This document shows, piece by piece, positions 6,212 through 8,230 of a stretch of 64,000 nt of DNA. Source of the DNA: Halobaculum gomorrense (GTDB lineage: Archaea; Halobacteriota; Halobacteria; Halobacteriales; Haloferacaceae). Positions within the stretch are counted from its first letter, which is position 1. The number at the start of each line of letters is the position of its first letter. The position numbers and the translations under genes are program-made. Location of the stretch: positions 269,780-333,779 of the forward strand of contig NZ_FQWV01000001.1 in assembly GCF_900129775.1 (NCBI RefSeq). Reading direction: 5' to 3'. The notes under the pieces were generated by a model. It was given only the letters and a program-made list of their open reading frames with translations. It was not told the origin of the DNA and did not search any database.

Positions 6212-7579
6212 ATGGGACTCAGATGTCTCCTCGGCCACGACTTCTCGGAGCCGAGGATGGAACGGGACCGCGAGGAGCGGGGAGACGAGGTCGTCATCAC
6301 CATCTCGGAGGTGAAAGAGTGCAGCCGCTGCGGCGAGACGCGAGTCGTCTCCGAGAATAAGGAGGTCACCTCGGTGGATCAACTCCTCGAGGAGTCCGGC
6401 TCCGCGGCCGCCCCACCGGTGTCGGCGACGGCGGATGCGACCGGCACCGGGACGGCGGACACGAGCCACGACTCCAGCGAGGGCGACGCGGCCGGCGCGG
6501 CGGAAACGGCTACTACGGCCGACACGGCCGATGCGGACGCCGGTGACGCAGAGGGCGAAACCGTACGCGACGCCACGGACGCGGCTGCCGCCGCCGCCGA
6601 CGACGGGGGCGACCCCGACGCCGCTGCCGTCGACACCGACTTCGATCATCCCGCGGCCGACCCGGCCGAAGACGGGGGCAACCCCGACGTTCAAGAGGAC
6701 GCCGAGATCCTCGGCGCCGATGACGACACCTCGGCCGGCGGGGGCGTCGCAAGCGGAGCCGGCGATGCGGAGCCGACGGCGAACGCAGCCGACTCGGGCG
6801 GTCGAGCCCACGGGGAGTGGCCCGACGCCGACGCGAACCGCCGCGGCGACGACGCCGACGGCGGACCCGCTGAGTGGCCCGACGCCGACCGCAACCTCTC
6901 TGACCAACCGACCGACGAGGCGGGGGCCGACGACCAGCACAGGCCGGCTGACGGGGAGTCGGAAGACGTGGAGTTCATCGACAGCGAGGACGATGGCGCC
7001 GAGGACGAGGGCAGCGAGGACGCCGCCGCCAACGAGGCTCGAACCGACGTGGTGCCCGACGCGAAGCGCGCCGACGAACCGGGCGCGGCGACGGACCCGA
7101 GCGAGGAGGACGTGGAGTTCGTGGATGGAGCCGGTCCGGACGACTGGCCCGAACAGGCCGGCGACGACGAGGGGTACGACGCCGAACTCGGCGACGACGA
7201 CGGCGGCGACGGCGTCTCCGTGGACGGAAACCTCACGCCCCAGGTCGACCCCGAGGTCGCCAGCCAGGAGGACGTGGAGTTCATCGAGGCGGACGCCGAC
7301 GCGGCTGCGGGCGGGCCCGCTCCGACGGCCGAGGACGACCGCTCCGACGGCGCCAGCGGGGGCGACCCAGCAGACGCCGGCTGCGGGACCCCCGGCCCGG
7401 ACGACGCCGAGCGCTCGCGTCCGAACGTCGAACTTCGGACGACCGTCGACCGCGTCGACACCGTCTACGTCTGCCCGGAGTGCGGGAACGGCGAGCCGGT
7501 CGGCGCCTCCTCGATGCGCGCCGGCGACATCTGCCCCGAATGCAAGCGGGGCTACATCGAAGAGCGCGAGGTTCAATAA
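6212..7579 (+). CDS. Long acidic disordered protein with terminal zinc ribbons
   Basis: 455 residues. The N-terminal 55 residues are folded-looking, with C5/H9 and C37-x2-C40. The C-terminal 40 residues hold a zinc ribbon (C421-x2-C424 and C441-x2-C444). Between them lie about 360 residues of Asp/Ala/Gly/Glu-rich, probably disordered sequence with recurring motifs: EDVEFIDS (251), EDVEFVDG (299), EDVEFIEA (353), and WPDADANR (203) with WPDADRNL (222). I believe this is the haloarchaeal DUF7093 family, from memory. Function unknown; the layout of two metal-binding ends joined by a linker with repeated short motifs suggests a scaffold or adaptor. The start is set by the TATA box at 6178-6190. 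Confidence 0.82.
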   Translation: MGLRCLLGHDFSEPRMERDREERGDEVVITISEVKECSRCGETRVVSENKEVTSVDQLLEESGSAAAPPVSATADATGTGTADTSHDSSEGDAAGAAETATTADTADADAGDAEGETVRDATDAAAAAADDGGDPDAAAVDTDFDHPAADPAEDGGNPDVQEDAEILGADDDTSAGGGVASGAGDAEPTANAADSGGRAHGEWPDADANRRGDDADGGPAEWPDADRNLSDQPTDEAGADDQHRPADGESEDVEFIDSEDDGAEDEGSEDAAANEARTDVVPDAKRADEPGAATDPSEEDVEFVDGAGPDDWPEQAGDDEGYDAELGDDDGGDGVSVDGNLTPQVDPEVASQEDVEFIEADADAAAGGPAPTAEDDRSDGASGGDPADAGCGTPGPDDAERSRPNVELRTTVDRVDTVYVCPECGNGEPVGASSMRAGDICPECKRGYIEEREVQ

Positions 7580-7846: not shown

Positions 7847-8230
7847 ATGAAGCAGTACAAGATGCGTCGCGGCGAGCATCTCGAAGACCGGATGCCCGAC
7901 CTGAAAGCCGAGATCGAAGAGCGCTTCGGCCCGGTCACGGGCAGCGAGGAGTACAACGGGCACGAGCTGTACGTCGTCGAGGAGCCCGACAACCCGGTGT
8001 TCGATCGGATCGTCGCCGGCGCGGCGTCGTACTCGGGCAAGAAAAACAAGCTCGCGGTCCACTTCGAGGAGCGACCCGCAGAGGAGGTCATCGCCGAGGG
8101 TAACGCCGACGCCGCCGCCGACGCGGTCGACGCGAAGAACTCGTTCCTGCTCGACGCCACCGGCCGCGACGCCAAGTCGCGCCGCGACTCCATGAAGCGC
8201 GACGTTGAAGACGATGCCCCCGACTACTGA
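7847..8230 (+). CDS. DUF5611 family protein
   Basis: A 127-residue, compact, soluble haloarchaeal protein starting MKQYKMRRGEHLEDRMPDL. It has no membrane segment and no catalytic motif. I recognise it as the DUF5611 family, found widely in Halobacteria and without known function. The start is backed by a TATA-like box about 26 bases upstream. The 267 bases before it (7580-7846) hold no gene that I can support. Confidence 0.82.
   Translation: MKQYKMRRGEHLEDRMPDLKAEIEERFGPVTGSEEYNGHELYVVEEPDNPVFDRIVAGAASYSGKKNKLAVHFEERPAEEVIAEGNADAAADAVDAKNSFLLDATGRDAKSRRDSMKRDVEDDAPDY

Follow-up and report, generated by a model that had tools for sequence, protein, structure and literature searches.

Introduction

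The described systems closest to the element reported here are short linear motifs and bipartite docking peptides. For the SUMO-interaction motif (SIM) the consensus is a core of four residues, at least three of them hydrophobic, with acidic residues adjoining. We know of no annotated motif with the pattern of the module described below. Archaeal linear motifs seem to have been little explored, judging from a full-text literature search that yielded one article (PMC5922023).

The gene studied here lies in a stretch of 64,000 nucleotides from Halobaculum gomorrense (the window), and its product matches Pfam family PF23373 (DUF7093). The family entry assigns no function, and several of the sequence islands treated below, together with the C-terminal end of the window protein, fall outside the match. 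A literature search returned no mention of DUF7093, DUF5611, PF23373, PF18446 or GEWPD. Haloferax volcanii possesses a family member as well (control match). A protein kept by nearly every haloarchaeon checked and lacking an assigned function could point to a core process still to be studied.

Results

The DUF7093 gene and its distribution

The open reading frame starts with an ATG at position 6212, ends with a stop codon at 7577 to 7579 on the forward strand and encodes 455 amino acids. Residues 1 to 226 score above the curated cut-off of PF23373 (Table 1), and by this profile match the protein is a haloarchaeal member of DUF7093. None of the NCBIfam profiles scored above cut-off for the 455-residue protein, and a sequence search of solved structures gave no match up to E = 1 for either this protein or its DUF5611 neighbour.

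Table 1. Features of the locus, with positions in the window and residues of the DUF7093 protein.
Feature	Residues	Position	Strand	Remark
DUF7093 gene, 455 aa	1-455	6212..7579	+	PF23373, 145.5 bits (curated cut-off 27); sole match in its own genome
N-terminal zinc-type domain (C5, H9, C37, C40)	1-56	6212..6379	+	Cys/His invariant in alignment; predicted beta domain
EDAEIL, left module half	162-167	6695..6712	+	fits the DD[GA]xIL logo
RAHGEWPD, right module half	198-205	6803..6826	+	fits RxxGEWP[DE]; A3 match E = 4.2e-4, model positions 15-31
WPDADAN, first WPDADxN	203-209	6818..6838	+	sequence
WPDADRN, second WPDADxN	222-228	6875..6895	+	sequence; local extra copy
EDVEFID	251-257	6962..6982	+	sequence
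EDVEFVD	299-305	7106..7126	+	sequence
Island WPEQAGDDEGYDA	312-324	7145..7183	+	W312, P313 and D319 invariant in 58 aligned sequences
Island VSVDGNLTPQVD, VxFGGxLTPE type	335-346	7214..7249	+	type in 10/16 same-family genera, 5/40 others
EDVEFIE	353-359	7268..7288	+	aligns with EFI/EYV island
C-terminal zinc-ribbon-like end (C421, C424, C441, C444)	415-453	7454..7570	+	Cys invariant; CxxC...GDxCPxC
DUF5611 gene, 127 aa (candidate partner)		7847..8230	+	PF18446, 85.4 bits

DUF7093 was found in all 145 genomes of the class that were at least 90% complete, representing 58 genera, and in 147 of the 148 genomes of the family, the sole miss being a genome 56% complete. Among further genomes of the order, many of them incomplete, it was present in 19 of 23, including all 8 of high quality, and the 4 misses were 64 to 78% complete. 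When 147 genomes were drawn from the phylum, 26 contained the family, all of them haloarchaeal, and it was detected in none of the 121 non-haloarchaeal genomes. Most genomes have one DUF7093 gene among the matches listed; five genomes of one genus (g34) have second places.

Two sets of homologues were collected. The first comprised 76 loci, from which 72 proteins were extracted, making 73 with the window protein (L034, L054, L075 and L076 were unused). These loci were fetched with patterns that included HGEWPDAD and QEDVEFIE, by which motif counts in this set are biased upward, and for this reason one DUF7093 place per genus was fetched instead. The per-genus set covered 58 genera and two second copies, giving 60 stretches of which 59 were parsed. 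Per-genus counts refer to 56 homologues (n = 56), leaving out the unparsed L138, the second copies L186 and L187, and L128, which belongs to the same genus as the window. The module DDGVILDADDEDDEEPVDREPGEWPE is visible by eye in L138.

Two zinc-type ends and a predicted disordered middle

The N-terminal C-x3/4-H ... CxxC pattern of DUF7093 and the four C-terminal cysteines (Table 1) are invariant across 58 aligned sequences, the window included. The N-terminal pattern was present in 56/56 genera, a count of no independent weight, since a similar pattern had served to select the proteins, and CxxC...GDxCPxC was found at the C-terminal end in 55/56. The C-terminal end scored below the curated cut-offs of Zn_ribbon_19 (20.5 against 30.8 bits) and Zn_ribbon_8 (16.5 against 34.4 bits). 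Judged from the conserved residues, both ends of the protein look metal-binding.

In the AlphaFold2 model, made as a single chain from 58 sequences, the N-terminal beta domain is confident (pLDDT 92-93, residues 11-50) and the C-terminal end fair (pLDDT 81-91, residues 421-455), the latter with short predicted strands at residues 417-420, 427-429 and 450-453. The pLDDT was below 50 in 287 of the 455 residues, and all such segments of at least three residues lay between residues 74 and 412. In this mostly low-scoring linker the best block, residues 311-320, reached 63; it lies partly inside and partly next to the WPEQAGDDEGYDA island. The middle of the protein is predicted to be disordered and the ends to be folded. 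A fold comparison of this model with solved structures gave no match at E ≤ 0.001 and none with Z ≥ 5, and so no clue to what the N-terminal domain does. The length and prevailing disorder of the model weaken this negative result, which barely covers the C-terminal end.

Two loci of the first set harbour large open reading frames (L075, 2082-5105; L076, 3933-6179) that appear Ser/Thr-kinase-like by eye and contain a CPECG...RAGDICPECKRGY-type ribbon with 69% and 59% identity, respectively, over about 33 residues. These are otherwise very different proteins, and by eye they have no DUF7093-like N-terminal start. The similarity is suggestive of a shared haloarchaeal ribbon module.

The EDVEF and WPDADxN repeats are local variants

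The sequence-only reading had singled out three copies of EDVEF(I/V)(D/E) and two of WPDADxN between two metal-binding ends and taken them for short linear interaction motifs. All these copies are present (Table 1), and neither exact motif occurred in 20,000 composition-preserving shuffles of residues 59-405. A motif-blind test was weaker, since the linker is rich in Ala and Asp: at least one 5-mer occurred three or more times in 148 of 5,000 shuffles (3%).

Lack of conservation in orthologues, the outcome named beforehand as refuting that interpretation, was observed for the literal motifs, and the literal claim thus fails. The exact EDVEF motif and the exact WPDADxN were each present in 1/56 of the one-per-genus homologues (L148 and L142). 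In the larger, motif-selected set, window included, the counts were 4/73 and 3/73, EDVEF[IV][DE] being found here and there (in the window, L002, L025 and L051) and WPDADxN likewise (in the window, L001 and L002). Three exact EDVEF copies were seen in the window protein only (73-protein set). When the genome of the window was searched with DNA patterns, WPDADxN had no further match, and [DE]DVEF[IVM][DE] had one, which is probably non-coding because its open frame runs antisense to a 245-residue reading frame. Of five matches in the same genome to DNA that would encode GxxWP[DE]x[DE]-like sequence, the four further ones had no acidic-hydrophobic island nearby by eye.

Looser island types were commoner in the family of the window than outside it. 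EDVEF-type islands ([DE]xE[FY][IVL]) were present in 8/16 same-family genera and 7/40 others, and the [DE][DE][DEG]G[FYW] type, to which the WPEQAGDDEGYDA island belongs, in 13/16 and 6/40. On this comparison the triplet of EDVEF islands was elaborated at the level of the lineage, and the two strings originally picked out are local variants.

A bipartite module in the linker

The broader part of the original reading, that conserved islands lie in a drifting disordered linker, was borne out, and in kind the linear-motif idea is right. More widely conserved than the exact strings is a module that the sequence-only reading had not recognised as one unit. Consisting of DD[GA]xIL, an acidic run and RxxGEWP[DE], it was found in strict form in 40/56 and in loose form in 44/56 of the one-per-genus homologues. 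The logo of 41 instances, which were picked with a pattern in which WP directly follows G, T or R, reads DD[GA][EVI]IL[DE][DE]D, an acidic stretch and [DE]R[ED][PHR]G[EQA]WP[DE], with a total length of 20 to 31.

The two halves were assessed separately. WP was present in the linker of 55/56 genera, against a mean of 10.6 and a maximum of 20 of 56 in shuffles, and an acidic-hydrophobic island of the form [DE][DE]xx(FILVY)(FILV) in 52/56 (shuffles: mean 2.3, maximum 7). The island preceded the first WP in 48 of the 52 homologues having both (random placement: mean 25.6, maximum 38). The distance from island to WP had a median of 21.5 residues with quartiles of 20 and 25.75, compared with medians of 34.7 on average and 19.5 at the lowest over 500 random placements. 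Where the first WP followed the island within 60 residues, with no other selection applied (n = 46), R occupied position −5 of WP in 42 cases and G position −2 in 38, relative to linker backgrounds of 2.6% and 9.7%, respectively.

The codons were compared between islands chosen after viewing the alignment and the spacers, so that this comparison, like that of island and spacer identities, is partly circular: third, first and second positions differed in 28-29%, 6-8% and 11-17% of island codons and in 45-54%, 33-34% and 36-38% of spacer codons. With that circularity, the islands are under selection at the protein level. Two properties of linear motifs were found, namely predicted disorder and conservation above the surroundings; the latter is evident in the counts, the shuffles, R at −5 and G at −2, and not in exact EDVEF or WPDADxN. 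The functional unit is probably the widespread bipartite module rather than these strings as such.

In the window protein the module halves are spaced longer than usual, 41 residues from the start of the island to W against about 21 typically. A MAFFT alignment placed EDVEFID beneath the DDGVIL column; we preferred EDAEIL and RAHGEWPD as the module counterpart, because the same-genus L128 has EDAEIIDGEG...GRAHGEWPDADAN, in which the module is more compact than in the window.

The loose module was missing by pattern in 12/56 genera, and L153 (178 residues) had no WP. The second copies L186 and L187 (genomes G214 and G211) have zinc-type ends and two islands of the DDAVIL/AVII type and no WP; the halves of the module can accordingly occur apart, with the left half alone.

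All strict instances except L137 (39 of 40) went into a profile of the module (A3). The pattern used to pick them prescribes D, I, R, W and P, so that the invariance of these residues follows from the selection and carries no weight. When A3 was run against 59 genomes of the order, 32 of them yielded a match with E ≤ 1e-3, in every case inside the DUF7093 gene of the genome concerned; for 28 the gene had been placed in the class and phylum searches and for 4 in that of the further genomes of the order. The best matches outside DUF7093 had E = 0.0055 (G382) and E = 0.0018 (G367, a genome in which no DUF7093 gene was found). Several other genomes gave only weak matches, and in the four genomes of family f31 and in G363 (family f32) DUF7093 was present without any A3 match even at E ≤ 10. 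By its significant matches in these genomes, the module is private to DUF7093 and not universal, with several deep-branching families showing none. The f31 genomes (G362, G369, G374 and G379) are about 1 Mb in size, and their DUF7093 frames of 234 to 243 residues have no recognisable module.

The linker could instead be an entropic, salt-adapted acidic spacer, its islands being short-lived low-complexity duplications that bind nothing. Such a spacer would suit a linker composition of 62% A, D, G and E across homologues, the sporadic exact repeats, the 3% chance level of motif-blind repeats and the deep families devoid of the module. It does not fit I, L, R, G, W and P standing far above background and shuffles across genera, nor the preferred order and spacing of the islands, and for the core module it is already disfavoured; overall we find it unlikely. 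A docking element is favoured over a mere spacer on the basis of order, spacing, anchors above background, protein-level selection and matches confined to one family. The module being missing in some deep families lowers our confidence in docking slightly.

The acidic-hydrophobic islands might also be SIM-like motifs for the ubiquitin-like SAMP proteins of haloarchaea, which would make DUF7093 a SAMP reader. The module shares with the SIM a short hydrophobic core flanked by acidic residues, and by eye EDVEFI of the window follows the core pattern (hydrophobic-x-hydrophobic-hydrophobic) and EDAEIL does not. V, I or L, however, precedes I-L in just 20/40 strict modules, leaving half without three consecutive hydrophobic residues, and the half with R and WP (RxxGEWPD) is extra and foreign to the SIM, which makes SAMP binding a very improbable role.

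A further reading is that the islands make up a region resembling an acidic activation domain, by which a zinc protein involved in transcription would contact the transcription machinery. A disordered acidic stretch with few aromatic and aliphatic residues, flanked by two zinc-type ends, would suit this. No DNA-binding family was above cut-off in the Pfam and NCBIfam profile searches of the 455-residue protein, however, and the preferred order and spacing relative to R and WP point to a specific dock more than to a composition-driven region, so that a role of this kind seems improbable. The SAMP-binding and activation-domain readings are both less supported than a docking element.

The co-occurrence of ends and islands in nearly all 56 homologues could also reflect intramolecular regulation, with the islands binding back on the zinc ends of the same protein. 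The model does not pack the islands confidently on the ends (AlphaFold2, whole-model pTM 0.26), which is weak evidence given a single chain and 58 sequences; we judge this arrangement improbable too.

The DUF5611 neighbour

DUF5611 was found in 78/78 fetched DUF7093 loci, and in 72/72 measured it was located downstream on the same strand with a median gap of 91 nt (37 to 462, except for one of 1594), a tandem arrangement that is no proof of a single operon. In the per-genus set it was present in 55/60 fetched stretches and downstream on the same strand in 54/54 measured. The five stretches without it were from three genera with DUF5611 elsewhere in the genome and from the two second copies. 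Other neighbours were less constant among the 78 stretches, with ROK in 54, Usp in 51 and DUF6432 in 37.

DUF5611 is spread more widely than DUF7093, occurring in 91/121 non-haloarchaeal genomes of the phylum, and from this distribution it probably predates DUF7093. It has a conserved basic GRDAKSRRDSMKR segment. The best fold match of its model was Thermoplasma TA0095 (2joi; Z 6.8, rmsd 3.7 over 96 residues, 20% identity), with the next row at Z 6.0. TA0095 is itself described as hypothetical, and a literature search on TA0095/COG4004 gave nothing relevant to function. Around non-haloarchaeal DUF5611 (30 best-scoring loci, 3.3 kb each), genes clustering with a chorismate-lyase-like protein were found in 18, with a PAC2-family protein in 11 and with a radical-SAM protein in 11, too inconsistent a neighbourhood to derive a function from. 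PAC2-family proteins are proteasome assembly chaperones, and one gene of the PAC2 cluster near DUF5611 is located at 731-1453 of L116.

The tandem position and the conserved basic segment make DUF5611 the first candidate for the docking partner of the module. The exceptions in neighbourhood and the wider distribution keep this pairing tentative, and we regard it as rather unlikely.

Discussion

We consider it reasonably probable that DUF7093 consists of two zinc-type ends and an acidic disordered linker carrying a private bipartite docking element that has been elaborated in this lineage. Such a protein may be depicted as follows: Two small folded zinc-type ends would be joined by the long acidic linker, in which DD[GA]xIL, the acidic run and RxxGEWP[DE] form the putative docking element widespread in the class. 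The Ile-Leu and Trp-Pro anchors would dock on a partner, and the acidic run would add charge contacts and salt-tolerant spacing. By holding on to other components with its zinc ends, the protein would serve as a tether. The extra islands of the lineage, acidic-hydrophobic (EDVEF-type) and WPD-type, might raise affinity or add contacts.

A wider reading is more doubtful. In most haloarchaea, the private two-part docking code on the near-universal zinc-ended scaffold may be read by a receptor of similarly wide occurrence. DUF5611, found in the non-haloarchaeal relatives too, could be this receptor, and the system would then be a core protein-assembly hub, so far undescribed, that arose with the class. 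For a functional test, the module provides a 30-residue peptide in which I, L, R and W are the four key anchors.

The putative docking element resembles short linear motifs and bipartite docking peptides in its conserved islands within fast-changing disorder, in their preferred order, in the hydrophobic anchors and in the charged flanks. It differs from known linear motifs in that, over the 59 genomes searched, all significant matches of the module fall in one protein family.
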